Assembly: GCF_009192765.1 (NCBI RefSeq)
Contig: NZ_VOHQ01000002.1
Location: 310,001 to 374,000, forward strand
DNA length: 64,000 bases
Direction of reading: 5' to 3'
DNA from: Agriterribacter humi
GTDB taxonomy: Bacteria > Bacteroidota > Bacteroidia > Chitinophagales > Chitinophagaceae
This document shows positions 8,138-50,136 of the stretch, piece after piece; positions within the stretch are counted from its first letter, which is position 1, and each line of letters begins with the position of its first letter. The notes beneath the pieces were generated by a model. It had not been told where the DNA came from. It saw only the letters and a program-made list of their open reading frames with translations, and ran no database searches. The position numbers were made by a program, and so were the translations under genes.

Positions 8138-8644
8138 GCAGAAGCAAAAGTAAGAGATCGTTGTGGCGGGACAGGGGCGTAAAGTGATATAATATTCAAT
8201 GCCTTCGAAAGTTCTGACAGTCGTACGATTTGTTTATAATTAATCAGGCAACTTGGAGATAGCGTGTTTCAAATCCCAGCTAACTAAAAGTTCCTTAGCT
8301 TCCGGAGTCCACCGTACTATCTGAATATTACATATAAAATGCAAATCATTCGAAAGGGTAGCTTCCTGCTAATGATTGGAATTGTTTTATTGCCTGAATT
8401 TTGAAACGTAAACTTAGCTGTTTAGCAGTTTGGAAGAACCGTATTTTTTATTCCCCATCCATTATTTCAGCCGCACAATATTGGTTTTAAATTATATTTA
8501 CATTAACATTTTATCGTCCGATAAAAGGATGTTTTTGAATTACATTTAATTAGAAATAAGTAGGATTCGATTAAATAAATGTTTTTTTCATACACCAGAC
8601 AAACACCGGAAAGCATTTTAGTCAACCCAATATAAAATACATAA
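8138..8644. other. 507-bp intergenic region, possible coding relic on the minus strand
   Basis: No complete gene seen. On the minus strand, 8368 to 8240 reads as an open frame without a start codon; it contains VRWTPEAKELLVSWDLKHA and ends KLPD-stop. It reads like the tail of a real protein, but I cannot assign a family. The rest (8380-8644) is AT-rich and probably holds the promoter of the AraC gene; no clear TAnnTTTG box was found. Confidence 0.35.
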
Positions 8645-9526: not shown

Positions 9527-9636
9527 ATTGCCCGTAATATCAAAAGCAGAAGAACTTAGTAAAGAATGTGAAATTACTACCGCCAAAAGCATATCACCAG
9601 GAGATCAAACTTAGCTAGTTTAGAAAAATTAATTAC

Positions 9637-29986: not shown

Positions 29987-30106
29987 CTGGATAAGAGAGT
30001 AGTATGCCAGTCCAGGTAATGATAATAATTTCGGTCTGAAAAATGAACAGTTGGTGTCCTCTTATTTTAATAATGCGTATATAGAAAACGCGAAGGCAAT
30101 TTGAAA

Positions 30107-31492: not shown

Positions 31493-31534
31493 GATTGAAC
31501 AGGATTTATTTTTATATACTTAAACAGAATTGGA

Positions 31535-32878: not shown

Positions 32879-32887
32879 AACACTGCT

Positions 32888-34060: not shown

Positions 34061-34092
34061 ATATTGTTTTACTTAAAATAATGTAAGCGCAC

Positions 34093-35481
34093 ATGAATAA
34101 TTTACAAGCTACAGGTAAAGATTGGTGGCGGGCGGCAGCGGCAGGCATTCCGCATTTGATTACAGAAACCCCGGGGCCGCGTTCAAAACAGATGCATGCC
34201 AATACCGCAAAATACATGAAGGGACTCAGCTCACAGGTGAAGCTGTTCCCGGTATGTTTTGAAGAAGGTTCGGGTATAACATTAACAGATGTGGATGGCA
34301 ACAAGTATCTTGACTTTTCCTCAGGTATTTATGTTACTTCATTGGGTCATTGTCATCCCAAAATATCTGAAGCCATTGCTTACTGGGCAGGGAAATTAAT
34401 GAACGCCCATGATTTTACTACGCCTGTAAAAGAAAAGCTGATGGAAAAAATGGCATCCATTTTACCGGGCAAATTAAACGCGGTTCAATTGTATTCAGAC
34501 GGTACAACAGCAGTTGAGGCGGCTATTCGCGCAGCCAGGGCTATCAGCAATAAGCACGAATTTATTTCTGCCTATAGAGATTTTCATGGCAAAAGCATGA
34601 GCGCAGTAAGCTGTGCGCAGATGTACCGGAGCGAAACATTTAGTTACGGTCCTTCAAGAGCCCCCGGATTTTATATGGTGCCCCGTCCTGACCCCTATCG
34701 TCCGTTGTGGGAAAAGGCAGACGGCACTATTGATACCGATGCCTATATACGCTTTTATGAAAATTTTATTAAGGAAGGTACGGTGGGGAATGTGGCGGCA
34801 TTTGTGCTGGAACCGGCACAGGGTTGGGCTGGCAGTATTTTTCCACCGGATGATTTTTTCCCTAAACTGAAAACTTTATGCGAAAAACACGATATACTCC
34901 TGTATGATGACGAAGTATTGGCGGGGATGGGACGTACAGGGGAATGGCTCACTTTAAATCATTGGGGGGTTATTCCGGATATTGTCACTTTCGGAAAATC
35001 ATTTGGCAATGGTTTCCCTGTTACGGCTATGGTGGTGAGCGAAGAGAACGGGGAAGCGCTTGAAAAAATTTCTGCCTCTTCCAGCTATGGCGGAAATCCA
35101 ATGGCCTGCGCAGCGGCTCTGGCGTCCATAGAAGTAATAGAAGAAGAAAACCTGCTGGAGCATGTTAAAACAGTGGGCGCCTTTTTTATGAAAAGAATGG
35201 AGCAAATGAAATCGGATCATCCCATTATTGGGGATGTGAAAGGAAAAGGATTTTTATTGGGAATAGAACTGGTAAAAGATAAAAAAACAAAGGAACCTTT
35301 TCCGGAAGCAGGAGTAGCTGTTTACCAGAAAGCATTCAGGAAAGGATTGGCATGGATACCTGCGGGACATATTCTGCGGATGTCTCCGCCATTAATAATG
35401 GATGAAAAATATGCAGCAATGGGAATGAACATTATTGAAGATGCCATTACTGAAACAGAAAAAGAATTTGGATACAGGTAA
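34093..35481 (+). CDS. Class III (omega-amino) pyridoxal-phosphate aminotransferase
   Basis: PLP enzyme of 462 residues in the class III aminotransferase family, which usually transfers a terminal or side-chain amino group to a 2-oxo acid. It shows the start of the fold (DVDGNKYLDFSSGIYVTSLG), the PLP phosphate-binding region (YSDGTTAVEAAIRAARA), the PLP-pyridine Asp in LLYDDEVLAGMGRTGEW (about residue 274) and the Schiff-base Lys in VTFGKSFGNGFPV (about 302). All catalytic residues are intact. It sits between a sugar kinase and a ceramidase-like protein, an unusual place that suggests removal of an amino group from the sugar-derived substrate. GABA, taurine or ornithine aminotransferase roles cannot be excluded. 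Confidence 0.88.
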   Translation: MNNLQATGKDWWRAAAAGIPHLITETPGPRSKQMHANTAKYMKGLSSQVKLFPVCFEEGSGITLTDVDGNKYLDFSSGIYVTSLGHCHPKISEAIAYWAGKLMNAHDFTTPVKEKLMEKMASILPGKLNAVQLYSDGTTAVEAAIRAARAISNKHEFISAYRDFHGKSMSAVSCAQMYRSETFSYGPSRAPGFYMVPRPDPYRPLWEKADGTIDTDAYIRFYENFIKEGTVGNVAAFVLEPAQGWAGSIFPPDDFFPKLKTLCEKHDILLYDDEVLAGMGRTGEWLTLNHWGVIPDIVTFGKSFGNGFPVTAMVVSEENGEALEKISASSSYGGNPMACAAALASIEVIEEENLLEHVKTVGAFFMKRMEQMKSDHPIIGDVKGKGFLLGIELVKDKKTKEPFPEAGVAVYQKAFRKGLAWIPAGHILRMSPPLIMDEKYAAMGMNIIEDAITETEKEFGYR

Positions 35482-35530
35482 GAGAAAAAAAATTTCCATA
35501 TTTCCCCGGATAAGTAATTAAACATTTTGT

Positions 35531-36976
35531 ATGAACACACAAAATAACGTGGCGGATGCGAAATTACGCATAGGTTGGGCAACGGAAGATATAACCCCTT
35601 CCGGCCCGGTATCTCTGTACGGTCAGTATTATGAAAGAATATCGTTGCATGTGCAAAGCGCATTAACGGTTACGGCCTGCGCTATTGAAAAAAAAGATAC
35701 AGCAGGCAATGCGGAGCAGGCTATTACGGTATCCATGGACGTTATTTACGCCTTAAAGGAAGTGCAGGATGCCGTAAGGGAACGTATTAAAGACGAACTT
35801 CCGGATTTTGATGTACGCAAACTTTTTTTAAATGCCACGCATACCCATTCTGCACCTTATCCTGAAGTGGCAGGCACATTTGGCCAATTGTTGCTGGATG
35901 GTATTTGCAAAGCAGCGATAACTGCCTGGCTGAATAAAAAGCCTGCTGCCGTTAGTACAGCATTCGGCTATGCTGTAATTGGCCATAATCGCCGTGTAAT
36001 GTATACTGATGGCACTGCAGAGATGTATGGACGAACAGACCGGGAAGATTTTTTAGGGATAGAAGGGCCAACCGATCCCGGAATTGATTTGTTGTTTACC
36101 TGGGATATGGATAAACAATTAACCGGTGTTTTCATCAATGTTTCGTGTCCGGCGCAGGTTACGGAATCAAAGTACTATGTGTCTTCAGATTTTTGGAGCG
36201 AGGTGCGAAAGCAGGTGGCAGCAAGATTTGGAAAAAATGTCTTCATCTTACCGCAATGTGGTGCGGCAGGTGATATTGCTCCGCGCGATTTAACTACACG
36301 CTACAGGGCCGGCGAACCGGATATGTGGGATGTGCCTGGTATTATAGAAATAGGAAAAAGAATTGACCAGGTAATAGGCAACGCGTATGCTGCTGCGCTG
36401 GATAATAGCACTACGGATATTGTATTCCGGCATGAAGTGAAAAATATTCAGATTCCTACACGCATGATCAGTGAGGAGGAATATGCCCGGTCACTTAAGA
36501 TCGTAAACACCATTAAAGCCAAAGAGCCTGCTGATCCCGCATCTACGCATACGGCATGGAACCGTTTTTTACAGGAGATGAAAGAAAATGAGCAAACACA
36601 GCCTTACGGACCATGGGATAGCAAGACCTCCGATTACGGCTGGTTGCGGCCCATGGAGATAGTAGTGCAGCAGTACGAAGACGGGAACAGACCTGCAACC
36701 TATGCCTATGAATTGCATGTGTTGCGCATACATGATGTAGTAATGGCAACCAACCCCTTTGAACTTTTTGTGGATTATGGATTTGCCATTACCGCAAGAA
36801 GTAAGGCAAAGCAAACATTTATTGTACAGTTTTCCGGCGATTCTGGTGGATACCTGCCCACGCAAAGGGCGCTGGATGGGGGAGGATATAGTGCCATGGC
36901 TAATAATGTGGGACCTGCCGGAGGCAAAGTACTGGTTGAAGAAACCATTGCCCTGATAAATTCAATGTGGCAATAA
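35531..36976 (+). CDS. Neutral/alkaline ceramidase-like protein, apparently cytoplasmic
   Basis: Protein of 481 residues that resembles the catalytic domain of neutral ceramidases, zinc amidases that split N-acyl bonds. Landmarks are the N-terminal LRIGWATEDITPSGPVSLYG, the metal site LNATHTHSAPYPEVAGTF (about residues 98-115), FILPQCGAAGDIAPRD and a C-terminal FIVQFSGDSGGYLPTQRAL. No signal peptide is visible, whereas true bacterial ceramidases are secreted and longer (about 650). It probably hydrolyses an amide in a small cytoplasmic substrate, for example an N-acylated amino sugar. This is inference from its neighbours, the aminotransferase and aldolase genes. Zinc residues look intact. 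Confidence 0.78.
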   Translation: MNTQNNVADAKLRIGWATEDITPSGPVSLYGQYYERISLHVQSALTVTACAIEKKDTAGNAEQAITVSMDVIYALKEVQDAVRERIKDELPDFDVRKLFLNATHTHSAPYPEVAGTFGQLLLDGICKAAITAWLNKKPAAVSTAFGYAVIGHNRRVMYTDGTAEMYGRTDREDFLGIEGPTDPGIDLLFTWDMDKQLTGVFINVSCPAQVTESKYYVSSDFWSEVRKQVAARFGKNVFILPQCGAAGDIAPRDLTTRYRAGEPDMWDVPGIIEIGKRIDQVIGNAYAAALDNSTTDIVFRHEVKNIQIPTRMISEEEYARSLKIVNTIKAKEPADPASTHTAWNRFLQEMKENEQTQPYGPWDSKTSDYGWLRPMEIVVQQYEDGNRPATYAYELHVLRIHDVVMATNPFELFVDYGFAITARSKAKQTFIVQFSGDSGGYLPTQRALDGGGYSAMANNVGPAGGKVLVEETIALINSMWQ

Positions 36977-37035
36977 ATCCATCTAATAAATAGTTTGACA
37001 GCATCTTAAAATAAATCATTACAATATCAGGAATA

Positions 37036-37866
37036 ATGAAATCATTCAGGCTTAACAGGTTATTCAACCCGGTATCAAAAAAATGTTTTGATGTGGCGGT
37101 GGATCATGGTTTTTTTAATGAATACCAGTTCCTGGAAGGAATTGAAAATATCCGTTCGGCCATTGAAATGGTAGTGCAGGCATCGCCGGATGCCATACAA
37201 CTCACCGCGGGACAGGCAAAGTATCTGCAGCAAATTCCGGGAAAACAAAAACCCGCGTTGGTACTAAGAACCGATGTGGCCAATGTATACGGCGCTTCCC
37301 TTACTACGGGTTCATTTAGTAAAATGATAGAACAGGCTGCCCTGCAGGCTGTTCGGCTGGATGCCGCATGTATGTGCATCAATCTCTTTTCTATTCCCGG
37401 TGCGCCGGAAGTAACCGGCCAGTGTATTGATAATATCATTCGCCTTAAGCTGGAATCAGAACATTACCAGGTGCCGCTCATGATTGAGCCGCTTGTGTTC
37501 AGACCCAATAGTGATAAAGGCGGGTATATGGTTGATGGAGACATTAAAAAAATTATTTCGCTGGTACGGCAGGCGGTAGAGCTGGGCGCTGATATTATTA
37601 AAGCTGATCCCTGCACTAATGTGGAAGCGTATCACCAGGTGATAGAAGTGGCGGGAGACATTCCTGTGCTGGTAAGGGGTGGTGGCAAAACCGCCGATGA
37701 AGAAATTATAAAAAGAACAGCCATGTTAATGCAGCAGGGCGCTTCAGGTATTGTATATGGCAGAAATATTATCCAGCATAAGCATCCTGCACATATTACG
37801 CGTTTGCTCATGGATATTGTACATGGTGAAGCCACGCTGGAAGACACCCTTGCTAAAATTCAATAA
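37036..37866 (+). CDS. Class I aldolase of the DhnA/LacD/DeoC type
   Basis: TIM-barrel Schiff-base aldolase of 276 residues. It starts with FDVAVDHGFFNEYQFLEGIE, the usual DhnA N-terminal motif with the active-site Asp and His. The Schiff-base Lys is in ADIIKADPCTNVEAYHQ at about residue 189, and the phosphate-binding loops are IPVLVRGGGK and GASGIVYGRNI. This family includes fructose-bisphosphate aldolase, tagatose/sulfofructose-phosphate aldolases and Lsr-type aldolases. Being the last cytoplasmic enzyme of an isomerase-kinase-aldolase series, it should split the phosphorylated keto-sugar into C3 units. The gene lies 59 bp after the ceramidase-like gene and 18 bp before the secreted glycosidase-like gene. 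Confidence 0.87.
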   Translation: MKSFRLNRLFNPVSKKCFDVAVDHGFFNEYQFLEGIENIRSAIEMVVQASPDAIQLTAGQAKYLQQIPGKQKPALVLRTDVANVYGASLTTGSFSKMIEQAALQAVRLDAACMCINLFSIPGAPEVTGQCIDNIIRLKLESEHYQVPLMIEPLVFRPNSDKGGYMVDGDIKKIISLVRQAVELGADIIKADPCTNVEAYHQVIEVAGDIPVLVRGGGKTADEEIIKRTAMLMQQGASGIVYGRNIIQHKHPAHITRLLMDIVHGEATLEDTLAKIQ

Positions 37867-37884: not shown

Positions 37885-39663
37885 ATGCAAAAAATGACAG
37901 ACATGACATCTTTTTACAAAAACCAGTGGTTGATATGCTGTTTTTTGATTAGCATGCTAACAGCACTGTCTTGTACTAACACAAAAAACCGTACGCTCAA
38001 TAAGCCCGTAAAGCATATATATGTGCAGTCGGTTGAATTTTCTTCACCGGCAGTGAATAAAATTGAGCAGGTATTTGTGGAAAGATTAGAAGATAGAGGA
38101 ATTAAGCGGGTACCCAAAAGTAATGCGTCTGAAATTACAGTGGTTTTAGCCATAAATAATGATATCGGTAAAGAAGGTTTTACTATTGAGGATGGAAAAA
38201 ATGGAAGTATAATAATTACAGGAAATGATGAAAGAGGCTTATTGTATGGTATAGGCAAATTTTTAAGAACTGCCGGTTATACCGATGAAGGTTTCACCGT
38301 AGGTACGTGGCGGGGAAAGAGCGTTCCTGATAAAGAGCTGAGAGGAATTTACTGGGCTACTCATTTTTACAATTACTATCAAACCGCGCCCGTTGCAGAA
38401 CTTCAAAAATATGTAGAGGATCTGGGTTTGTGGGGATATAATAACATTAAGATTTGGTATGATATGCACCACTTCAAATCTTATGATGATCCTGTGGCTG
38501 TACGTTTCAGGGAAAGAATAGCCCATATTTTACAGGCAGCCAAAAATATAGGTATGGATGTTTCTTTTACCCTGGTTGCTAATGAGGCTTACGCGGAAAG
38601 CCCGAAACATTTAAGAGCTTTACCTGGGAGAGAAAGAGGAGCAGTTTACCCGGAAGACATTTGCCCCCATAAGCCCGGTGGGCTGGAATATATTTTAAAA
38701 GTTAGAGAAGCATTTTTTGATTGGTGCAAACCCTTCAATCCTTCATACATCACCATATGGCCATACGACCCGGGTGGTTGTGCTACTTCCGATTGTCAGC
38801 CCTGGGGCAGCAATGGTTTTATGAAAGCTTCAGAAGCAGTTGCCCAACTGGCTTCAACAATAATACCCCAAACTAAGGTAATATTATCTACCTGGATGAT
38901 GGACAGCACAGAATGGAAAAATGTAATGCAGCAAATGCCTGCAGCAGGTAGCTGGGTAAACACCATAATGGCCGAAAAAATAAATGATACTTATAAGGGT
39001 TTTTTTACAAAAGTTCCCGGAAACATTCCGGCTATAGGATTTCCTGAAATAAGCATGGATGGTATGTTTCCATGGGGCGGTTTTGGTGCCAATCCAACGC
39101 CTGAGAAATTAGCGGAGCAGTGGAGCAAAGTGAGTAATTTTTCAGCAGGCGGATTTCCCTATTCCGAAGGTATTTTTGAAGATATTAACAAGGCAGTATA
39201 TGCGCAGTTGTATTGGAATGATAAGGTGGGTGTTGATGATATATTAAAAGAATATACACGGTACGAGTTGGGGATAGCGCATACGGGCAGCATATTAAAA
39301 GTAATACATACATTGGAGCAAAACCATCATATGCGCTGGTGGCCGGGGAAGCTGGAAGGTGTAAAACTGCAATTAGACTGGTTTCCTTCAAAAAATGTAA
39401 AGCCCCAGCCTGATCCGGGAGCTGAAGATGCTTATGAAATAGTGAAAAAATCAAATGAAACCATGTCTGTTTGGGCAAAATCTTCATGGCGGTGGCGTAT
39501 CCTTTTTATCAGAACAATGCTTGATGCTGAACTTAAAGCCAATGGAGGGTCTCCTAATGAAAAATGTTATGAAGGATTTTATGAGCTGTTGAAGTTATAT
39601 CATTGCACGGAGCAAACAGACCCTGTAGTTAAACCTCCGCTTCCGGCAGCAGGAAATAAATAA
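37885..39663 (+). CDS. Glycosidase-like lipoprotein, paralogue A (GH20/GH67-like N-terminal fold)
   Basis: Lipoprotein of 592 residues (signal with lipobox LTALSC at about residue 30; ATGs at 37885 and 37903 are both possible). Residues 40-130 look like the small alpha/beta domain that precedes the barrel in GH20 and GH67 (EITVVLAIN, ITGNDERGLLYGIGKFLR). A TIM-barrel-like domain follows with GIYWATHFYNYYQTAPVAEL, WPYDPGGCATSDCQPWGSNG, GFPEISMDGMFPWGGFGANP and GFPYSEGIFEDINKAVYAQL. The same blocks recur in the protein at 48466-50136. I cannot assign it to a named GH family. The last gene of the isomerase-kinase-aldolase operon, it probably releases that pathway's substrate at the surface or in the periplasm. 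Confidence 0.78.
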   Translation: MQKMTDMTSFYKNQWLICCFLISMLTALSCTNTKNRTLNKPVKHIYVQSVEFSSPAVNKIEQVFVERLEDRGIKRVPKSNASEITVVLAINNDIGKEGFTIEDGKNGSIIITGNDERGLLYGIGKFLRTAGYTDEGFTVGTWRGKSVPDKELRGIYWATHFYNYYQTAPVAELQKYVEDLGLWGYNNIKIWYDMHHFKSYDDPVAVRFRERIAHILQAAKNIGMDVSFTLVANEAYAESPKHLRALPGRERGAVYPEDICPHKPGGLEYILKVREAFFDWCKPFNPSYITIWPYDPGGCATSDCQPWGSNGFMKASEAVAQLASTIIPQTKVILSTWMMDSTEWKNVMQQMPAAGSWVNTIMAEKINDTYKGFFTKVPGNIPAIGFPEISMDGMFPWGGFGANPTPEKLAEQWSKVSNFSAGGFPYSEGIFEDINKAVYAQLYWNDKVGVDDILKEYTRYELGIAHTGSILKVIHTLEQNHHMRWWPGKLEGVKLQLDWFPSKNVKPQPDPGAEDAYEIVKKSNETMSVWAKSSWRWRILFIRTMLDAELKANGGSPNEKCYEGFYELLKLYHCTEQTDPVVKPPLPAAGNK

Positions 39664-39688
39664 TCCATAATGTATTGATGATATTATT

Positions 39689-39715
39689 CCGGTTAAATGC
39701 AAATAATTTAACCGG
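39689..39715. terminator. 10-bp stem hairpin between operon end and susC of PUL2
   Basis: CCGGTTAAAT and ATTTAACCGG pair perfectly around a 7-base loop, starting 26 bp after the stop of the glycosidase-like gene. The downstream sequence is only weakly T-rich (TGATCTTCCTTTG), so it may be a weak terminator or an RNA-stabilising hairpin rather than a full stop. The rest of the gap to 39931 shows nothing else clear. Confidence 0.5.
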
Positions 39716-39931
39716 TGATCTTCCTTTGTTATTTATAAACAACCACTATAAAAAATATAACCACAGATCATGCAAATTGAGTGTCGTTATTTGAAAATGC
39801 AGTTGTTTCTTTCCAATGTGGTATTAACTAATTTTAATTCGTAAACAACATCGAAAAATGTTAGTTAAAAAATAGATCCCCGATAAGTTTATCAACTCTG
39901 TTAATTTTTTAATCAGCTTAAATCAAATTAA

Positions 39932-42900
39932 ATGCTAAACGATTATTTGCCATCCGGGTTTTTTCGCAAGCCTTTGCTGGTGCTTGGAGTTATTTTGAGT
40001 TTCTGTATAACAGCATTTGCTCAGCAACAACTTACTGTGAGCGGAAAAGTAACGAATAACAAAGGCGAAGCACTCCCCGGTGCCAGTGTAAACATCAAAG
40101 GGAGTAGTAGCACTGTTTTAACCAATAATAATGGCGAATTTGCTATTTCCTGTTACAGCAATAGCATTTTAATTTTCTCCTATAGTGGGTTTGAACCACA
40201 GGAAATTTCGGTGAACAATGCCACAAGTTTAGATGTGCAATTGCTCGAGGCACAGGGGGTATTAAGCGAGGTAGTCGTTACAGCGCTGGGAGTGGAGCGA
40301 AAGTCGAGCCAGGTAACCTATGCTACACAAAAAGTAACCGGATCAGAACTTACAAAGGTTGCGGAAACGAATTTTATCAATACAATCTCCGGAAAAGTAT
40401 CGGGGGTAAGCATCTATCGGAATGCATCAGGAGTAGGAGGTTCTGCTAAAGTATTGATCCGGGGTAATAAATCTGCCCAGGGAAACAATCAGCCATTGTA
40501 CGTAATCAATGGTGTACCTATGAGCAACTTTGCCAGCGAGAGCATCAACCAGTCTTTTTCGAGTTTTGATGGTGGCGATGGTATATCGAACTTAAACCCT
40601 AATGATATTGAAAGTATTAATGTGCTGAAAGGTGCATCGGCTGCAGCATTATATGGAAGCAGGGCTGCCAACGGTGTTATATTAATAACAACAAAAAAGG
40701 GCAAGAGTGGTATTTCCACTATTGATTTTTCTTCAAGTTTCAGTATGGACAGGGCTGCCTACCTACCGGAGTTTCAAAGCTCATTCGGTCAAACTGCCCC
40801 GGGATCGGAAGAAAGCTGGGGTGAAGCGATAACAAATGCGCCCGATAATATTTCCGGATTTTTTAAGACGGGTAAAACATGGATAAATTCCATTGCGCTT
40901 TCCTCCGGGAATGAAAATATGCGTACCTATCTTTCTTATTCACATACAAAGGGCAATGGTATCCTGGAAGATAATAAGCTTACCAGGCACAATCTCTCCA
41001 TAAGAGAAACGGCAAAATTCTTAAAAGATAAATTAAGCATTGATGCCAATTTAAATATTATAAGCCAGCACATGCACAATCCACCCATGAGCGGATTTCA
41101 GGCAACGCAATTGTATGGACTATATAGCTTTCCCAGGGGATTAAATATGGAGCCCTATAAGAATTTTGAAATATTTGATTCTGTTAGAAATGTAGGCACT
41201 CAAAATTGGCCGTTTATTACGGCGTCAAACCAAAACCCCTACTGGGTGGCGAACAGGAACCTGTTCGATAATAAGCGCAACAGGACAATGGTAAACCTGG
41301 TGGCAAAATATGATATTACGGACTGGCTGAATCTGCAGCTCCGCGGAAATATGGACAAGACCAACGATGTAAACACCCGGAAGTATTACGTGGGAACGGC
41401 TGTAGCTTACGGTGGGCCGAATGGCGGGTATAACCTTTTAAACAGAACGCTTACTGAATATTATGGAGATGCAATTTTAAATGCGTCAAAATCTTTTGAT
41501 AAAATAAGTTTAAATGTGCTGGTAGGTTCCAGTATCACAGATACCCGTACCAATGGAGAGTCTGCCGGATCTACCCTGCTTTATATACCGAATGTTTTTA
41601 CCATTCAAAATATGAATCCGTTAAATGGCGGCTATGCAAGTTCTCTTTCTGATGGACGGCAACAATTGCAGGCAGTTTTCGGAAGCGCCAATATTACCTA
41701 CAACAATTGGTTGTCGCTTGATGTGACAGGAAGGAATGACTGGTCATCCAATTTAAGTTTTACCCCGAACGGATCGTACTTCTATCCATCGGCAGGCTTA
41801 AGCGTTCTGTTGCAGGAAGCGTTGAAGCTACCTGAAGTAATTTCTTACGCGAAATTGAGAGGCTCTTATGCGATGGTGGGAAATACTGTTCCATTATACG
41901 TTACTAACCCACAGAATTACCTCGATGGCAGGGGTAATGTAAGTTTCAATAACAAAGCACCATTTACTGATTTAAAACCAGAGAAAACAAAGTCGTTGGA
42001 AGTAGGGGCGGAGATACAGTTGTTCCGGAATCAGTTTAGCGTTGATTTTACGTATTACAAAACAAACACTATTAACCAGTTCTTTTCCATTGCTGTTCCT
42101 CCGGGTACAGGGTATAGCCTGCGTTACATTAATGGCGGCGATATTCAAAACTCAGGTGTTGAGGTTACCCTTGGCTATACATCGTTGCCGGGAACATTGC
42201 TGAGGTGGAACAGCGCGGTAAATTTTTCAACCAATAAGAATGTTATAAAGCGTTTAGCCACGGAAGTAGAGCAGTTTGTACTTACCAGCGACATCAACAA
42301 TTATTATTCTATTCTTAAAGTGGGTGGTTCTTATGGCGACCTGTTTGGACAGGTAGTTAAGAGAGATGAAAAAGGAAGAGTTGTTGTTGATGCAGACGGC
42401 AAACCCGTAATACAATCCGGAAGCCCGGCATTTGTGGGCAATTCTAATCCGAAATTTAAAATAGGCTTTAACAACAATTTCAGGTACAAAAATTTCCTTT
42501 TAAGCTTTTTGGTAGATGGAAGCTTTGGTGGAAAAGTGATGTCTCTTTCGGAACAGGTATTTGACGGATTGGGAATATCTAAAGCAAGTGGCGAAGCCCG
42601 GTTGAACGGAGGTGTAAAAGTGAATGGTGTTACCGAGGGTACGGAAACTTCCGTAACTACTGTAGATGCCCGGAAGTGGTATCAAACTGTAGGCGGCATT
42701 CAGCATGCAACAGGAGAATACATGTATGATGCTACCAATGCAAGGATGCGTGAAATTTCATTAGGATACGCTATTCCTGCTACAGTACTGAAAAGCGGTT
42801 TTTTCAAAAGCGTGAAATTTTCATTAGTAGGAAGGAACCTGGTATACCTGTATAAAAAAGCGCCATTTGATCCTGATATTATTTTTTCAAACGGGAACGG

Positions 42901-42973
42901 GTATTCAGGTGTAGAAATATTAAGCCTTCCCGCCACGCGCAGCTTTGGCTTCAACCTGAATGTTATATTTTAA
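39932..42973 (+). CDS. SusC/RagA-type TonB-dependent outer-membrane transporter (PUL2)
   Basis: Outer-membrane importer of 1013 residues. The signal peptide (LLVLGVILSFCITAFA) is followed by a carboxypeptidase-like domain with the motif LTVSGKVTNNKGEALPGASV (about residues 33-52), the hinge SEVVVTALGVERKSSQVTY, a plug domain with VLIRGNKSAQGNNQPLYVI, NDIESINVLKGASAAALYG and GVILITTKKGK, and a barrel ending RSFGFNLNVIF. It has a SusD partner 33 bp downstream and directly follows the isomerase-kinase-aldolase operon, so it may import the polymer-derived substrate of that route. It resembles the PUL1 SusC more than the PUL3 one in its TALG hinge. Confidence 0.95.
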   Translation: MLNDYLPSGFFRKPLLVLGVILSFCITAFAQQQLTVSGKVTNNKGEALPGASVNIKGSSSTVLTNNNGEFAISCYSNSILIFSYSGFEPQEISVNNATSLDVQLLEAQGVLSEVVVTALGVERKSSQVTYATQKVTGSELTKVAETNFINTISGKVSGVSIYRNASGVGGSAKVLIRGNKSAQGNNQPLYVINGVPMSNFASESINQSFSSFDGGDGISNLNPNDIESINVLKGASAAALYGSRAANGVILITTKKGKSGISTIDFSSSFSMDRAAYLPEFQSSFGQTAPGSEESWGEAITNAPDNISGFFKTGKTWINSIALSSGNENMRTYLSYSHTKGNGILEDNKLTRHNLSIRETAKFLKDKLSIDANLNIISQHMHNPPMSGFQATQLYGLYSFPRGLNMEPYKNFEIFDSVRNVGTQNWPFITASNQNPYWVANRNLFDNKRNRTMVNLVAKYDITDWLNLQLRGNMDKTNDVNTRKYYVGTAVAYGGPNGGYNLLNRTLTEYYGDAILNASKSFDKISLNVLVGSSITDTRTNGESAGSTLLYIPNVFTIQNMNPLNGGYASSLSDGRQQLQAVFGSANITYNNWLSLDVTGRNDWSSNLSFTPNGSYFYPSAGLSVLLQEALKLPEVISYAKLRGSYAMVGNTVPLYVTNPQNYLDGRGNVSFNNKAPFTDLKPEKTKSLEVGAEIQLFRNQFSVDFTYYKTNTINQFFSIAVPPGTGYSLRYINGGDIQNSGVEVTLGYTSLPGTLLRWNSAVNFSTNKNVIKRLATEVEQFVLTSDINNYYSILKVGGSYGDLFGQVVKRDEKGRVVVDADGKPVIQSGSPAFVGNSNPKFKIGFNNNFRYKNFLLSFLVDGSFGGKVMSLSEQVFDGLGISKASGEARLNGGVKVNGVTEGTETSVTTVDARKWYQTVGGIQHATGEYMYDATNARMREISLGYAIPATVLKSGFFKSVKFSLVGRNLVYLYKKAPFDPDIIFSNGNGYSGVEILSLPATRSFGFNLNVIF

Positions 42974-43006
42974 CTGTTTAACCAACTCATACTTAAATTA
43001 AGCATA

Positions 43007-44605
43007 ATGAAAAATTATAAATATACTTTCATTAATATTAAAGCTTGTACCCTGGTGGCTTTATTGTTGATGATGAATGCATGTACAAAAGATTTTGAAT
43101 CATTCAATACCGACACTAATAGTATTTCGGATGAACAGCTAAAAGTTGATTTTAATAACATAGGGGCATTTTTTCCTAGCATACAGAATGCCTTTACTAC
43201 CAATAACATGATCCCCATGGATATAGGGGAGTTTTTAACGGGTGGCGCTTTCGCTGGTTACTTCATGTTTCCCAATCCCGGGGCTAATAATACGAATTAT
43301 TCAATGCTGGAAGGATGGGCCGGGTACGGAATGTTCGGTGTTGGCTATAATGCAATCATGTCACCCGTGAATGAAATAAAGCGGCGGGGTGCGGAAGCTT
43401 CTGCTCCTGATTTCTGGGCGGTAGCGCTTATTCTTAAAGTATACGGGATGCATAAAGTAACAGATATTTATGGACCTGTGCCTTATACTAAATTTGGTCA
43501 GGGCGGTACTACGGTTCCTTATGATAGTCAGCAGGAGATTTACAATACCTTCTTTAGTGAGCTTGATGTAGCGTCAAAGGCATTACAAGACTATATAGTG
43601 AAATTTCCGGGTGCAAAGCCATTCAGTAAATTTGATAATATTTATGCGGGCGATTATTCGCAGTGGCTACGATTTGCAAATTCCTTAAGGCTGCGGTTGG
43701 CAATGCAGATCGTAAAAGTAGCGCCGGATATTGCAAAGGCGCAGGCTGAAAAGGCGGTTGATCCGTTAAATGGAGGCGTATTCACGGCTAACGAGCACAA
43801 TGCTTTCGTAAAAGGCGGAAGCAATGCGCTATATATTGCCTCCCAGATCTGGGGAGATATAAGAGGAAATGCCGCGCTCATTTCCTGTATGAATGGTTAT
43901 AGCGATCCCCGGTTGAGTAAGTACTATGATCCTTCAACAATAGTACCAGGTGAATATGTTGGAATACGAACCGGAAGTAACATACAGGCAAGAGGCGATA
44001 TGCTCAAATTTTCAAACGTTGCAGCAGCCAGTTTTGTTCAGGCAACGCCTACGGAATTGATGACAGCGGCAGAAGTATATTTCCTCCGTGCTGAAGGTGC
44101 ATTACGTGGCTGGAATATGGGAGGAACTTCAGTAAAAGAATTATATGAAGAAGGTATTAGTACTTCCTTAACACAATGGGGTGTAGGTGGGGATGCGCCT
44201 GGTTATATTAATAACGATATTCGCAAACCGGCAAATTACACTGATCCTTTGCTCCCTGCTCAAAATGCGCCTGCCGTATCTGATCTTTCTGTAAAATGGG
44301 ATGAAGCGGCTACAAATGAGCAAAAACTCGAACGCATTATTATTCAAAAATGGATATCTGATTTTCCGGATGGAACCTGCGCCTGGTCAACTTTCCGGAG
44401 AACAGGATATCCCAGGCTTTTCCCGGTTGCTGTAAACAACAGTGGAGGAGAGATTTCCACTGCTATTCAGATTCGCAGGATGAATTATCCGGGGTCAGAA
44501 TATGTAACCAATGCCGCCGAAGTAGCCAAAGGGGTAACGTTGCTGGGCGGCCCCGATAACGGAGGCACCAGGCTTTGGTGGGATATTGCAGGACCGAACT
44601 TTTGA
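43007..44605 (+). CDS. SusD/RagB-like surface lipoprotein (PUL2)
   Basis: Surface glycan-binding partner of the preceding SusC, 532 residues. The signal ends in a lipobox (LLLMMNAC), followed by TKDFESFNTDTNSISDEQL, the SusD_2-type start. Helical repeats include VTDIYGPVPYTKF (about 155-167) and YSQWLRFANSLRLRLAMQIV. Near the end are TCAWSTFRRTGYPRLFP and RLWWDIAGPNF. The gene is 33 bp after susC and 20 bp before the dioxygenase gene. No defect is seen. The bound glycan is unknown. Confidence 0.93.
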   Translation: MKNYKYTFINIKACTLVALLLMMNACTKDFESFNTDTNSISDEQLKVDFNNIGAFFPSIQNAFTTNNMIPMDIGEFLTGGAFAGYFMFPNPGANNTNYSMLEGWAGYGMFGVGYNAIMSPVNEIKRRGAEASAPDFWAVALILKVYGMHKVTDIYGPVPYTKFGQGGTTVPYDSQQEIYNTFFSELDVASKALQDYIVKFPGAKPFSKFDNIYAGDYSQWLRFANSLRLRLAMQIVKVAPDIAKAQAEKAVDPLNGGVFTANEHNAFVKGGSNALYIASQIWGDIRGNAALISCMNGYSDPRLSKYYDPSTIVPGEYVGIRTGSNIQARGDMLKFSNVAAASFVQATPTELMTAAEVYFLRAEGALRGWNMGGTSVKELYEEGISTSLTQWGVGGDAPGYINNDIRKPANYTDPLLPAQNAPAVSDLSVKWDEAATNEQKLERIIIQKWISDFPDGTCAWSTFRRTGYPRLFPVAVNNSGGEISTAIQIRRMNYPGSEYVTNAAEVAKGVTLLGGPDNGGTRLWWDIAGPNF

Positions 44606-44625
44606 TAAACGATAAACCGTATATT

Positions 44626-45456
44626 ATGAGTTACTTTAAATTAAGTGAGCAACAAATCAATGCATTTAATAAAGACGGGTATCTTATTGTTAGAGGGGGT
44701 CTTACAGGCGAAGAAACCATAAAGCTGTCTGGTATTGCACTGAATGATGATATTATCAAAAAAAATGCGCTTGATCTTAATGACAGTTCCGGAAGAAAAA
44801 CACGCCTTACATCGTGGTATACACCTGGCAATGACGCCTATGGATTACTCACCAAAAGCAGGAGAATAATAGAATCAGTTGACAAGCTGCTGGACGGAGA
44901 AGCGCCCGTTTGTCACTTTCATAGTAAGCTGATGCAGAAAGAGCCAAAAGTGGGTGGAGCCTGGGAATGGCACCAGGACTACGGATATTGGTATAAGAAC
45001 GAATTTTTATTTCCGGATCAGATGATATCGGTGATGATTGCCATTACTGACGCCAATAAACAAAACGGATGCCTGCAGGTAATAAAAGGATCGCATAAAA
45101 TGGGACGTGTGGAGCACGGCTTTTCAGGTGAGCAGGTAGGCGCTGCTCAACATTATGTTGACCTGGCATTGAAAACAATGGAATTGGTGTATGTAGAATT
45201 AAAGGCAGGCGATGCGCTTTTTTTTCATAGCAATATCCTTCATCGCTCAGCGGCGAATTTGTCGGATACCGCCAGGTGGTCTTTGATTTCATGTTATAAC
45301 CGCGCCTCTAACAGAGCCTATAACGAAGCCTCGTTATCTCACATCACTCCAATAGAAATGGTGCCGGATGAAGCGCTCCTGGAGTGGGATGGAGAGACAA
45401 TTGGTAGCAATGTTGATTTTGTAGGAAAGGAGCATGTACATAAAGCAGAGATCTGA
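44626..45456 (+). CDS. Phytanoyl-CoA dioxygenase (PhyH) family Fe(II)/2-oxoglutarate oxygenase
   Basis: Non-heme iron oxygenase of 276 residues from the ATG at 44626; an upstream GTG-type start at 44575 would overlap susD by 31 bp and adds residues unlike the family. The iron triad is His-x-Asp in WEWHQDYGYWY (His about 116, Asp about 118) and a distal His in FFHSNILHRSAAN (about 206). The 2-oxoglutarate-binding Arg lies in DTARWSLIS. No signal peptide is visible, so it is cytoplasmic. PhyH enzymes hydroxylate or oxidise small molecules such as alkyl, amino-acid or ether compounds. Within a PUL it may remove an O-alkyl group (for example O-demethylation) or oxidise an aglycone. The substrate is a guess. 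Confidence 0.85.
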   Translation: MSYFKLSEQQINAFNKDGYLIVRGGLTGEETIKLSGIALNDDIIKKNALDLNDSSGRKTRLTSWYTPGNDAYGLLTKSRRIIESVDKLLDGEAPVCHFHSKLMQKEPKVGGAWEWHQDYGYWYKNEFLFPDQMISVMIAITDANKQNGCLQVIKGSHKMGRVEHGFSGEQVGAAQHYVDLALKTMELVYVELKAGDALFFHSNILHRSAANLSDTARWSLISCYNRASNRAYNEASLSHITPIEMVPDEALLEWDGETIGSNVDFVGKEHVHKAEI

Positions 45457-45527
45457 GAGGCGGGGAATGGGAGGAATTAAGTATAATGTATTAAACCGAA
45501 GATTGGATCCGTATAATAATTTAAGAA

Positions 45528-47867
45528 ATGGATAATAAACAAAAAAACAACAGGATCGTTCGTATGAACATCTCCGTTGTGGTAATAGTAACGTTACTTA
45601 CCATATTGGTAGGATGCCAAAATAGCAATCATGCTGCTGATCCAAATGCAATAGTAAGATCAACGCGGATAGAATTGCCGAACCAGGACAGCAATATTAT
45701 CAAAACTTCATGGCCTTCTATTGGATGCTGGTTTTGGTTTCAGGAAGAATTTGAAGGGGAGGGGTATAAAAGATTTATAGACCTGCATGAAAAATATTCT
45801 CCTTTTGAATTGCTCTCCACCAGTTTGCGCTACCCCGGAGATTTAACAGATCCGAAAGTGCATGACCAGATAAAAGCCGCGTCATTGTATGCGCGCAGCA
45901 AAGGAATAGGGTTGGTGATGGATTTAGATATCCGTCTGGCCCGGGATAGCTTTAAGGAAAAATATCCCGACGAACTGCAGCAAATCATCCTGTTAAGAGA
46001 ATTTCCCCTGAATAAAGCCAATACGGCTGCTCTTGGCGTTAAAGCGCAGGGATTTGATGACCATTACACGTATGGCAGAAACCCCTATGAGCCTGTGACT
46101 ACAAAAGTACTGCGGGTATACAGTTATAGCAAAGAAGGCGGTTTGATTAAATCCGGAACGGTAAAAGATATAACGGCAGCCGCTACTTCTAATGCAACAA
46201 AAGACAGTGTAAATATTACTGTTGATTTTGATGAGGCGGACAGAGGTAAGACTGCTTGTGCGCTGGTTGCGGTTACTTTATATACACCGGATGTATTTGC
46301 CCCTCATATATTATCCTATCAGCGTGAGATACTACAGCAATATGCCGATGCTTCGCTGGCAGGCGCCTGTAAGGATGAATGGGGCTTCCCGGGCAGGTTT
46401 ACCCCGCAAACCAATGATCTGTGGTACTCCTCTTTTATGGCGAAGGCGTATGAACAACAGCGGAGTGGGAGAGATTTATTGAGAGATATGTTGCTGATGA
46501 CTTATGGTGAAACTGCTGCGAAAGCAGATAGGATAGCCGCTGTAAATCATTATATGGAAATGTACTGGAAGAGAAATGGTGAAATAGAAACGGATTATTA
46601 TCATGCTATAAAAGAAATATTCGGTAAGGACGCTATGTCGGGCACACATCCTACGTGGTTCCCGTTCCCTGATAACAGGGAAATTTTTAAAAATGGTTTA
46701 AGCTGGTGGGTTTCGAAAAGAGATGTTGCTCAAACGGATGAAGCTACCCCCTTTAGTGTGAGAACGGCGCTTGCCAAAAAAATGTGGAGCCCGTTATGGT
46801 TCAATATGTATTACGACAAGGATGTGAATGTATATCATAAAGATATCTGGAGGGCTGCTTTGGCCGGTGGTCGGTTGAACTATCATCCGTTGTGGCCGCA
46901 TCCGATTGATAAGCTTACTACCTCTTTGCTGGAAGACAGTGTGATGATGGCAGAAAGCAGGGTGAAATTGCTAAATTATATTTCTGCGGCGTCGCCTGAT
47001 TGTCCTGTAGCAGTAGTATTCGGCCATCCGGCAGCGCTTAACTGGAACGATGACGCATCTTTTGCAGATGTAGGACTTAATATTGCCAACGCTTTGTGGA
47101 AAGAAGGATATTATACGGATTTAATTCCCAGCAGCGAAATCGTAAACGGTTCACTGAGAATAAATGCCGGTGGTAAAATTCAATACGGTCCGCAACAATA
47201 TGAAGCCGTAATTTATTATCATCCCGAATATGGTCAGGAAACAGTTGCAGCATTTTTTAATAAGGCGGCTGCTGCAGGTAAAACCAGTTTATACAGGGTT
47301 GGTGAATGGACGGTCAATTATGACGGACAACCATTTGATGGTATAGCGGCAATGGGTAATGCCGTTAAAAAGACGGATACACTTTCCGCGGTTACATCTG
47401 TAATAGCAGCCTTGCAGGCTAAAAATATTCTTCCTCAAACCAAAGGCGATGTACACACAGTGGCCGGCTTCCCATCATCGGTAATGCCAAAGGCAAGCGG
47501 GCAGCTCCGGTTAATTGATGGAACACTCATTGTTGTTTCTGGTGAGCATAACCTGATGGGAGATTCAATCAATCAGTCGGTTCAGGCAGATGGTCATGCC
47601 ATTTATTTTGACGCGATAGGCGTTGCAGCGGTAAGGTTAAACAAAAAAGGAGAAGTAGAGGCGCTGGCAGGAGGGGGGTTAAAATCGTTCAAATCAGAAA
47701 GTCTCAGTTTCGACCTGCCGGAACGTACTGATGTTGTGCTTTATAAAGAAAACGAAAAATGGCGGGGTATTGTTCAGGGCTATGAAGGACCCTTGCCGCA
47801 GGAACTGACCGAAATCACAAAAAACTGGGTAAAGTTAAAATGGCCGGAACAATATAAACCTCAGTAA
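45528..47867 (+). CDS. Large lipoprotein with TIM-barrel-like features, unknown family (PUL2)
   Basis: Protein of 779 residues; MDNKQK at 45528 or the Met 12 codons later both leave a lipoprotein signal with lipobox ILVGC. I do not recognise the family. After the signal comes SWPSIGCWFWFQEEFEGEGY and ASLYARSKGIGLVMDLDIRL, which look like the first strands of a glycosidase barrel. CKDEWGFPGRF at about 280 contains an acidic residue where a retaining GH could have one. Residues about 480-600 look like a GATase/trimerisation-type domain (VAVVFGHPAALNW, YEAVIYYHPEYG), as seen after the barrel in GH42-like and some rhamnosidase-like proteins. The C-terminus is a beta domain. It is probably a new or distant glycoside hydrolase co-transcribed with PUL2. 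Confidence 0.75.
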   Translation: MDNKQKNNRIVRMNISVVVIVTLLTILVGCQNSNHAADPNAIVRSTRIELPNQDSNIIKTSWPSIGCWFWFQEEFEGEGYKRFIDLHEKYSPFELLSTSLRYPGDLTDPKVHDQIKAASLYARSKGIGLVMDLDIRLARDSFKEKYPDELQQIILLREFPLNKANTAALGVKAQGFDDHYTYGRNPYEPVTTKVLRVYSYSKEGGLIKSGTVKDITAAATSNATKDSVNITVDFDEADRGKTACALVAVTLYTPDVFAPHILSYQREILQQYADASLAGACKDEWGFPGRFTPQTNDLWYSSFMAKAYEQQRSGRDLLRDMLLMTYGETAAKADRIAAVNHYMEMYWKRNGEIETDYYHAIKEIFGKDAMSGTHPTWFPFPDNREIFKNGLSWWVSKRDVAQTDEATPFSVRTALAKKMWSPLWFNMYYDKDVNVYHKDIWRAALAGGRLNYHPLWPHPIDKLTTSLLEDSVMMAESRVKLLNYISAASPDCPVAVVFGHPAALNWNDDASFADVGLNIANALWKEGYYTDLIPSSEIVNGSLRINAGGKIQYGPQQYEAVIYYHPEYGQETVAAFFNKAAAAGKTSLYRVGEWTVNYDGQPFDGIAAMGNAVKKTDTLSAVTSVIAALQAKNILPQTKGDVHTVAGFPSSVMPKASGQLRLIDGTLIVVSGEHNLMGDSINQSVQADGHAIYFDAIGVAAVRLNKKGEVEALAGGGLKSFKSESLSFDLPERTDVVLYKENEKWRGIVQGYEGPLPQELTEITKNWVKLKWPEQYKPQ

Positions 47868-47877
47868 CACAGAAAAG

Positions 47878-47933
47878 TTCTCATAAGCAGTTAGTTTTGA
47901 TAGAACCCCTATTTCTATAGGGGCTATTTTTTT
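47878..47933 (+). terminator. Rho-independent terminator with 22-nt conserved leader (copy 1)
   Basis: A 7-bp stem, CCCCTAT and ATAGGGG (47906-47923), with loop TTCT is followed by a run of seven Ts. The 22 bases at 47878-47899 are identical to those before the second terminator at 50309-50330. It ends the PUL2 transcript 10 bp after the stop of the 779-residue protein. Confidence 0.85.
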
Positions 47934-47940
47934 ACGAAAA

Positions 47941-48465
47941 GATGAATGTTGCTATAAAAGATTTGATAGCTGTTGTTCGTTATAGTATGTCAATTGAGGA
48001 TAGCGTGAAGGTATTAATTGCATAGCAGGAAATTTATTCAACCTTCTATTTCATAAAATATCTCAACATTTCGGTAAATACACGGCAAGAATTTTGTAGT
48101 TTTTATGAATCGGGTTTATGAATGTGAAATAAAGAAATGATGCAAATGAAGTGTCATAAGTTAGAATTACAAAGATTTTTTAATTGTTTTATTTATAACA
48201 ATTTTACTGCTCAAAAAATCATCAGGGTATTAATGGTTCAAACATTTATTTCTCATTTGCTCTTTGTTTTCATTTTCCCACAGGAACGGTTGTTGCAGAA
48301 GATAATGCTTCGTTAGCGGATGTATCGGTAAGTGTAGATGGCGGATCTGCCGGGACGATTACCGCTGCAGGAAATCACCTTAAATCCTTACCTCTCTCAA
48401 AATCCGGGTTGGAACTAACGTAGTTTATTGGACTTGTATTAATATGAATATTTTAAAGTAACGAT
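47941..48465. other. Intergenic region upstream of the second glycosidase-like paralogue
   Basis: AT-rich. It holds the SusC relic described separately (48280-48423) and no complete gene. No clear Bacteroidota promoter was found. Confidence 0.4.
48280..48423 (+). pseudogene. Relic of a SusC N-terminal carboxypeptidase-like domain
   Basis: The frame at 48280 reads TGTVVAEDNASLADVSVSVD, then GGSAGTITAAGNHLKSL, to a TAG at 48421. This is the pattern of the first strands of SusC regulatory-like domains (GTVxDxxGxPLxGVxVxVKGxxxGTxTDxxGxF). No start codon or signal peptide is in frame, and nothing of the plug or barrel follows. It is therefore a short relic of a lost susC, lying just before the glycosidase-like paralogue. 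Confidence 0.6.
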
Positions 48466-50136
48466 ATGAACGGACTTTCTTTAAAAATCCTGCATTCCTT
48501 TTTTTTACTTTTCATATCATTGTATGGACTGAGTCAGGTGCAAACAGTCAGGATTATAGTGCCTAAAGGAGCGGGCACGGTAATGGAGAACACAAAAAGA
48601 ATCCTGGAATTGCAGATTACCAGCAGGGCTGATGTTACAATAGTAAAAGACATCAGTGCGCAACTTACAATAGAGCTCATTAAAGAGGCAGGGTACCATC
48701 CCGAATCCTACAGCATTTCAGATAAAGGAAAAAGTCACATTCAGATAGCGGGAGCCGATGGAGCAGCCTTATTGTATGGTGCAGGCAAATTGCTAAGAAC
48801 CTCCTGCTATGACAGTAACGGTTTTACCCCCGGAACCTGGCGCGGCACTTCCACACCAAAAGGTAAAATAAGAGGTATATATTTCGCTACGCATTTTAAT
48901 AATTTTTACGAGGCGGCACCTATTGAAGATGTACAGAAATACGTGGAGGAACTGGCGTTGTGGGGCGTCAATCATCTTGTGATTCATTTTGCGAACTGGC
49001 AGTACACTGCTTTCTACGATGCAGCGGCGCAAAAAACGCTCACCCGCTTCAGACAGATAATGGGCATGGCAAGAGCGTGTGGAATGAAAGTGGGATTACT
49101 ACAGGTACCGAATCAGGGGTTTAAGTTTACAAAAAGTGAATTTTTGAATACGCCTGTGCCTGATCAGTTGGGCCGGAGAGGTCATTTTGGAATTAACCTG
49201 AACCCATCAAATGCGCAGGCAGACAAATTACTAAAGGAAAACTGGGCCTATTTATTAGATCAGTTTAAAGATATTGGTTTAGACCTTATGGTTTTCTGGC
49301 CTTATGATGAAGGAGGATGCGGTTGTGATCAATGCTGGCCATGGGGTGGGCGTGGCTATCCAAAATTATGCAAAGCACTTGCTGGTATTACCAAACAAAA
49401 ATTTCCTGACATCAACGTGGTGTTGTCTACATGGATGTATGATACACCACCTGCAGGAGAGTGGGAAGGGTTGACAAGGTTTTTGAGCAAAGGAAATAAC
49501 TGGCTCCACTATGTTATGGCCGATTCTCATGAAGACTTTCCAGGGTATCCGCTGCAGAAGGGTGTTCCGGGAAACCTTCCCCTGTTAAATTTTCCGGAAA
49601 TCAGCATGTGGGGCCAGGGACCCTGGGGTGGTTACGGATCTAACCCGCTTGTCAACCGCTTACAGCGGTTATGGAATCAAACGGAGGGTAAAGTATCCGG
49701 TGGTTTTCCTTATTCAGAAGGAATTTACGAAGACCTGAATAAAATAATTTGTGCCCAGCTCTATTGGGATGGTGAACGTCAGACATCAGATATTGTGAAA
49801 GAGTACATTGCCTATGAATTCTCGCCGGATGTAGTGAATGATGTCAGCCGGGCAATTGAAATTCTTGAAGCCAATCATAACCGCAAACAAATTAAGGCCA
49901 ATGCTGTTGAAGCTTTTAACCTTTTGCAACAGGCAGAGCGCAAATTAACCGCACAAACGCTGAAGTCATGGCGTTGGCGCATATTGTATCTGAGAGCTTT
50001 GATTGATCGTGAAATGTATGAACGTGGTGGAAAACTGGAAGGTGAACTGTTGAAGGCCGCTTTTAATGAACTAACAGAAATCTACCATGCGCAAAATGCA
50101 CATTCAATGCCAATAAGGCCGCCGGTAATTAAATAA
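48466..50136 (+). CDS. Glycosidase-like exported protein, paralogue B (GH20/GH67-like N-terminal fold)
   Basis: Exported protein of 556 residues with a type I signal (KILHSFFLLFISLYGLSQ); unlike paralogue A it has no lipobox cysteine. It shares the whole layout with the protein at 37885-39663: an N-terminal alpha/beta domain (GADGAALLYGAGKLLR), GIYFATHFNNFYEAAPIED, WPYDEGGCGCDQCWPWGG, NFPEISMWGQGPWGGYGSNP and GFPYSEGIYEDLNKIICAQL. The CxCxxC cluster and the conserved Asp and Glu in these blocks look like active-site or metal-site elements. It is a stand-alone transcription unit closed by its own terminator. I cannot name a GH family; activity on an acidic or amino sugar is a guess. Confidence 0.78.
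   Translation: MNGLSLKILHSFFLLFISLYGLSQVQTVRIIVPKGAGTVMENTKRILELQITSRADVTIVKDISAQLTIELIKEAGYHPESYSISDKGKSHIQIAGADGAALLYGAGKLLRTSCYDSNGFTPGTWRGTSTPKGKIRGIYFATHFNNFYEAAPIEDVQKYVEELALWGVNHLVIHFANWQYTAFYDAAAQKTLTRFRQIMGMARACGMKVGLLQVPNQGFKFTKSEFLNTPVPDQLGRRGHFGINLNPSNAQADKLLKENWAYLLDQFKDIGLDLMVFWPYDEGGCGCDQCWPWGGRGYPKLCKALAGITKQKFPDINVVLSTWMYDTPPAGEWEGLTRFLSKGNNWLHYVMADSHEDFPGYPLQKGVPGNLPLLNFPEISMWGQGPWGGYGSNPLVNRLQRLWNQTEGKVSGGFPYSEGIYEDLNKIICAQLYWDGERQTSDIVKEYIAYEFSPDVVNDVSRAIEILEANHNRKQIKANAVEAFNLLQQAERKLTAQTLKSWRWRILYLRALIDREMYERGGKLEGELLKAAFNELTEIYHAQNAHSMPIRPPVIK

Follow-up and report, generated by a model that had tools for sequence, protein, structure and literature searches.

GH20 beta-N-acetylhexosaminidases carry an Asp-Glu pair where strand 4 ends, and DUF4838 and GH163, the nearest named relatives of the proteins studied here, are presumably one family. 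One paper lists a DUF4838 protein as GH163 (PMC9870897), and another describes a B. thetaiotaomicron GH163 member that removes N-acetyllactosamine (LacNAc) antennae from N-glycans and cuts the N-acetylglucosamine (GlcNAc)-beta-1,2-mannose linkage of complex N-glycans (PMC10154615). Here, we analysed a 64,000-nucleotide stretch of the Agriterribacter humi genome (assembly GCF_009192765.1, contig NZ_VOHQ01000002.1, positions 310,001 to 374,000; hereafter the window), in which two related proteins, P0001 and P0002, lie on either side of a SusC/SusD-like pair. Homology, the fold prediction, conservation, gene context and natural fusions together point to a reading that we consider reasonably probable, namely that both are exported glycoside hydrolases (GH) of a family without a Pfam or NCBIfam name, a remote sister of DUF4838/GH163 within the GH20/GH67/GH84/GH115 fold group. 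This reading includes the residue roles, the metal site and the periplasmic role proposed below.

Two homologous exported proteins with an unnamed barrel

P0001 (37885–39663, forward strand) is a 592-amino acid (aa) exported, probable lipoprotein with glycosidase-like, GH163/DUF4838-related sequence, and P0002 (48466–50136, forward strand) is an exported 556-aa second member of the same family that diverged anciently. BLASTP aligned the two over their full length with 177/554 positions identical (32%, E = 9e-107), a similarity far beyond chance. The three shared motifs on which the original prediction had based their homology were recovered in both open reading frames (ORFs): motif 1 reads WPYDPGGCATSDCQPWG in P0001 and WPYDEGGCGCDQCWPWG in P0002, motif 2 FPEISMDGMFPWGGFGANP and FPEISMWGQGPWGGYGSNP, and motif 3 FPYSEGIFEDINK and FPYSEGIYEDLNK, respectively. 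Judged by eye, the N-terminus of P0001 is hydrophobic and ends in a Cys (LTALSC, an imperfect lipobox), and that of P0002 is ordinary and signal-peptide-like.

Pfam matches to P0001 were confined to the front domain. This included GH67N (PF03648; 24.3 bits against a cut-off of 24.3, over 35 residues) and the NAGLU_N and GH20b models, each under its cut-off. P0002 gave a weak front-domain match and a weak xylose-isomerase-barrel match, with none to PF03648. Neither protein matched the catalytic models of GH20 (PF00728, E up to 10), GH67 (PF07488), GH115 (PF15979) or GH84 (PF07555), nor GH89 PF05089, for which only the front-domain model NAGLU_N appeared, under cut-off. The NCBIfam scan returned nothing for either protein, and the barrel was covered by no Pfam or NCBIfam model. 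PDB sequence searches with the single proteins gave chance-level or weak front-domain matches only, a plasmid search with P0001 gave no match, and among the papers listed by the literature searches none dealt with the family and one mentioned DUF4838.

A scan of the two-row alignment over one genome per species (84,980 species) identified the family at 73 loci. The set used below for conservation, modelling and phylogeny (A2, 64 rows) comprised P0001, P0002 and 62 ORFs, selected from 83 matches for a best alignment of 440 query residues or more; the other 21 ORFs, which were shorter, cut or frame-broken, were left out. At E up to 0.1, the front-domain models Glyco_hydro_20b and PF03648 matched 44/64 and 33/64 members, respectively. 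Searched against the PDB, the 64-row profile found little beyond the front domains of GH20, GH67 and GH84 entries.

The barrel is remotely related to DUF4838/GH163

To place the barrel, we compared the family with profiles built from 20 DUF4838, 20 GH67, 19 GH89 (of 20 loci, one lacked a usable ORF where probed), 20 GH115, 25 GH20 and 3 GH84 proteins, as well as 14 distant proteins of about 790 aa. With the front domain removed, hhalign matched the family to DUF4838 at 97.1% (E = 7.7e-11) and to the unnamed ~790-aa family at 99.8% (E = 1.7e-30). Dividing DUF4838 by score into a typical set of 14 proteins and a divergent set of 6 weakened the match (93.8% and 41.5%, respectively). The same barrel-only comparison gave 2.3% for GH67, 1.8% for GH20, 1.6% for GH115, 1.3% for GH89 and 0.1% for GH84, the last with a profile of three sequences. 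By profile comparison, the barrel is thus a remote relative of DUF4838/GH163. The Pfam model PF16126 (DUF4838; cut-off 26.6 bits) left P0001 and P0002 unmatched even at E 10 and picked up 11/64 family members when E values to 0.1 were allowed, the best at 2.2e-4, and the longer fused protein at locus L050 reached 25.7 bits, under the cut-off. The earlier claim that the proteins match no named family holds for Pfam and NCBIfam names, but the barrel does have named kin.

Two copies of the ~790-aa kind occur in the window's own genome (C31 at about 93733–95034 and C29 at about 8423–9664; L021 and L029), each with a GH67N-like front domain, an unnamed barrel and acids in aligned places, but without the Cys cluster described below.

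Predicted fold and proposed catalytic residues

An AlphaFold2 model built from the 64-row alignment (pLDDT 88, pTM 0.89) comprised a front domain (~44–146), a TIM barrel (~152–445) and a helical rear domain (~450–571). Among 1000 re-aligned PDB chains, its best neighbours were GH20, GH115, GH84 and GH67 enzymes, tied at Z = 20–21.5 over 355–491 residues with 9–12% identity. Foldseek returned GH115, GH20, GH138 and GH89. The best PDB neighbours of the predicted structure are all glycosidases, and structure alone does not single out one of these families. Together with the Pfam front-domain matches, the model bears out the prediction of a glycosidase-like TIM barrel behind a GH20/GH67-like front domain.

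Conservation and the model converge on three shared acids, at the ends of predicted strands beta-4, beta-7 and beta-8. Asp295 (codon at 38767–38769 of P0001, forward strand), at the end of beta-4, was present in 64/64 members, as were Glu428 (39166–39168, forward strand), after beta-8, and Asp433. Position 388 (39046–39048, forward strand), after beta-7, was Glu in all but two of the 64, which had Asp. Codon positions were computed from residue numbers, and the strand numbering is our own count on the model. Judged by conservation and the predicted strand ends, Asp295, Glu388 and Glu428 are likely the catalytic acids. In the mechanism that we propose, the small N-terminal alpha/beta domain would support the barrel, with the helical domain packed behind it, and the C-terminal face of the barrel would present Asp295 as the general acid and Glu388 with Glu428 as base or nucleophile. 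SusCD would import the oligosaccharides that both proteins attack in the periplasm, and the released sugar would be taken into metabolism by the major facilitator superfamily (MFS) transporter, isomerase, kinase and aldolase encoded nearby.

A cysteine site probably shared with DUF4838

The Cys residues of motif 1, originally proposed as part of a catalytic block, are better explained otherwise. C260, C299, C301 and C304 were all present in 60/64 members. The four exceptions were P0001 and L032, which lack C301, and P0002 and L075, which lack C260. In P0001, the site spans 38662–38796 (forward strand) and reads C260 ... C299-x-T-x2-C304, with Thr in place of C301. The signature C...D-x(3-5)-C-x-C-x2-C is common to most of the family and all 14 typical DUF4838 proteins: D-x(2,8)-CxCxxC was found in 14/14 typical and 0/6 divergent DUF4838 proteins, and CxCxxC alone in 0/87 GH20, GH67, GH89, GH115 and GH84 proteins. 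As read from these patterns, the cluster is probably a structural or metal site and not a catalytic one. It would lie near the proposed acids and, in most members, bind a structural metal; P0001 and P0002 may have lost the metal.

Distribution and phylogeny of the family

Planctomycetota, Verrucomicrobiota, Lentisphaerota, Armatimonadota and Chloroflexota accounted for most of the 73 loci; the few others came from Paenibacillus, Acidobacteria, Halieaceae, Hydrogenedentes, one Clostridiales metagenome-assembled genome (MAG) and Bacteroidota MAGs. In a separate search, 2 of 296 Bacteroidota genomes matched at E <= 1e-20. One was the window's own, and the match in the other, judged by how long it is and which range it covers, resembles the distant ~790-aa kind. 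Within the window's own family, Chitinophagaceae, 8/147 genomes matched; besides the window's genome, these were partial matches of the distant ~790-aa kind, as judged by identity and ORF length. From this rarity in Bacteroidota and in the window's own family, we infer that the genes for P0001 and P0002 probably came into the genome from outside.

In the 64-row tree, P0001 and P0002 fell in different supported clades, P1 and P2. Their closest partners, L032 for P0001 (63% identical) and L075 for P0002 (76% identical), are on different contigs of one Chitinophagaceae MAG. Five rows formed long branches, and these four proteins were not among them. Because they occupy separate old clades, the tree makes P0001 and P0002 old paralogues or separate acquisitions, with no local duplication. 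A phage-type integrase gene (L075:7298–8626) lies near the closest P0002 relative and hints at mobility. Separately, the P1-type gene at L069:9959–11689, also in a MAG, is split in two frames beside intact isomerase, kinase and aminotransferase genes, through either gene breakage or misassembly.

Gene context

P0001 is the seventh and last gene of a run with gaps of 9–59 bases, as the original prediction held in assigning it to the isomerase operon. The upstream genes (30101–37866, forward strand) encode a sugar-porter MFS protein, a FucI/SftI-like isomerase, a PfkB kinase, a class-III aminotransferase, a ceramidase-like protein and a DeoC/LacD aldolase. The SusC-like and SusD-like outer-membrane uptake pair (39932–44605, forward strand) follows, and a PhyH-type gene and a gene for a 779-aa protein without a Pfam match also lie before P0002. 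P0002 starts after a gap of 598 bases, and a terminator-like hairpin with a T-run (47906–47932, forward strand) separates it from the polysaccharide utilisation locus (PUL). Both are consistent with P0002 forming its own unit, again in line with the earlier claim. A short degenerate frame at about 48280–48375, upstream of P0002 (GTVVAEDNASLADVSVSVDGGSAGTITAAGN), looks by eye like the beginning of a carboxypeptidase-regulatory domain of the SusC type and is perhaps a remnant of a lost SusC.

We attempted to name the sugar from the operon genes and failed. The isomerase (31535–32878) had neither a Pfam match nor, to an E of 0.1, any relative in the PDB; its best NCBIfam match, sulfoquinovose isomerase, was weak (41 bits against a cut-off of 700), and sulfoglycolysis was considered but, lacking evidence, not adopted. 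The aldolase is similar to LsrF and to archaeal fructose-bisphosphate aldolases, the ceramidase-like protein had no PDB match and the aminotransferase (34093–35481) matched broad class-III enzymes. At 87–90% identity to the L032 and L069 copies, the aminotransferase is clearly more conserved than its operon neighbours.

Gene order was maintained in full at L032 (AraC, MFS, isomerase, kinase, aminotransferase, ceramidase-like, aldolase, P1, SusC, SusD, 45528-type). L069 keeps much of the first half, with a Gfo/Idh/MocA gene after the aminotransferase and an arabinofuranosidase-type gene after P1. P2-clade and P1-clade genes adjoin at L038, L042 and L060 (3/73 loci), although the P2-clade row of L042 is a long branch, and at L072 the gene just before a P2-clade gene is ceramidase-like and shares 55% identity with its counterpart in the P0001 operon.

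A second candidate glycosidase and natural fusions

The 779-aa protein (45528–47867, forward strand) is exported and matched neither Pfam nor NCBIfam. The best structural matches of its model were GH106, GH112 and GH42 enzymes (Z about 11–14), suggesting with modest confidence a GH42/GH106/GH112-like fold; the GH42/GH106-like assignment is weak because pLDDT was only 67. On this model, it is a candidate second unnamed glycosidase. Homologues occurred in 6/73 loci (L032, L042, L043, L045, L047 and L087). At L045, a P1-type protein is fused directly to a 45528-type protein, and at L042, a P2-clade member, an F5/8C domain and a 45528-type protein form one polypeptide, followed by an ORF in which GH2, F5/8C and P1-type parts are fused. 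These fusions support a glycan role for the family and suggest a partner enzyme for P0001-type proteins. One further idea, which we regard as speculative and rather doubtful, is that P0001-type and 45528-type proteins each form a new glycosidase family and act together, sometimes in one polypeptide, on one glycan degraded mainly by Planctomycetes and Verrucomicrobia, with the adjacent isomerase, kinase, aminotransferase and aldolase handling a sugar whose catabolism is undescribed.

Alternative explanations

Several observations weigh against P0001 and P0002 being hydrolases of the proposed kind. Each lacks one of the four cysteines, the closest relative of P0002 is not part of a PUL, the literature and databases searched gave no known activity for any family member, and the assigned catalytic roles depend on conservation and predicted strand ends. 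In addition, position 296 is Gln in 44/64, Glu in 8/64 and Pro in 4/64 members (Pro in P0001, Glu in P0002), such that the acid Glu that follows the strand-4 Asp in GH20 appears to be missing in most of the family. Asp295 itself was taken as the acid because of this Gln. The lack of a known activity and of the GH20-type acid would also fit non-catalytic glycan-binding proteins, or lyases, on a glycosidase fold, but several carboxylates are strictly conserved in both this family and the ~790-aa family, and the fusions join members to GH2 and F5/8C domains; we regard such a role as very improbable. The missing Glu likewise counts against a second alternative, that the two are outlying GH163 members, endo- or exo-beta-N-acetylglucosaminidases with a GH20-like substrate-assisted mechanism. 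Although the profile kinship with DUF4838, the shared C...D..CxCxxC signature and the PF16126 matches among family members all favour this assignment, neither window protein matched that model and no GlcNAc-catabolism genes were recognised among the window neighbours scanned, which leaves it distinctly unlikely. An inverting, exo-acting uronidase in the manner of GH67 or GH115 is unlikely as well, if less so. The GH67N-like front domain, the presence of GH115 and GH67 among the best structural neighbours and the placement of acids on strands 4, 7 and 8, which we assume to resemble that of GH67, speak for it; the barrel has no sequence kinship with either family, and no uronate-catabolism genes were recognised in the operon.

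Whether hydrolysis would be directed at one substrate is a separate matter. The original prediction tied both proteins to the same substrate, and the adjoining P2/P1 genes at three loci, as well as the ceramidase-like neighbour at L072, make a shared substrate plausible. On the other side, L075, the closest relative of P0002, lies outside any PUL: integrase and phosphodiesterase-type genes are nearby, no SusCD or isomerase genes were found around it (6 of 17 listed ORFs Pfam-scanned), and the P0001 relative of the same MAG is on another contig. With the separate clades and the independent unit of P0002, this makes it a serious possibility, if somewhat short of an even one, that the two proteins act on different substrates and are neighbours here by chance.

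Comparison with known systems

The exported glycoside hydrolase reading places P0001 and P0002 alongside several described families, each of which they resemble in part. GH20 enzymes share the front domain and overall fold (Z up to 21.5), but their barrel has no sequence kinship with the family and their strand-4 Asp-Glu pair is missing in most members; P0002 would keep this pair and P0001 would not. GH67 and GH115 alpha-glucuronidases appear to share the GH67N-like front domain and are structural neighbours (Z about 19–21), again without detectable kinship between the barrel sequences. The Cys pattern recalls what we take to be the zinc site of GH42, one Cys and a CxCxxC beside the strand-4 acid, as in Thermus A4 beta-galactosidase. 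The front and rear domains of GH42 enzymes differ from those of the family, and the likeness may be convergent.

New glycosidase families found among phyla able to break down recalcitrant glycans are pointers to substrates overlooked by current annotation, and this family, nameless in Pfam and NCBIfam, is widespread in Planctomycetes and Verrucomicrobia and very rare in the host's own group. Its closest relatives divide its features between them. DUF4838 aligns over front domain and barrel (383 columns, 98.8%) and, in its typical members, has the four-Cys signature seen in most of the family, but its alignment has no clear counterpart of the Glu388 and Glu428 motifs (FPEISM, YSEG..EDxNK), and its proteins are mostly 630–832 aa compared to 556–592 aa for P0001 and P0002. 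The GH67N-containing ~790-aa family aligns over 445 columns (100%) and has counterparts of Asp295, Glu388, Glu428, Asp433 and the NK of motif 3, with GGDPG, YPDxT and YS[DE]GxxDDxN in aligned places in 12/14 members, where Glu388 is replaced by Asp and Glu428 by Asp or Glu. It lacks the Cys cluster, and its barrel had no Pfam name in the three members scanned. Standing between GH163 and this second unnamed family, the family of P0001 and P0002 could reveal how, within this fold group, the set of acids and the Cys site evolve independently of one another.

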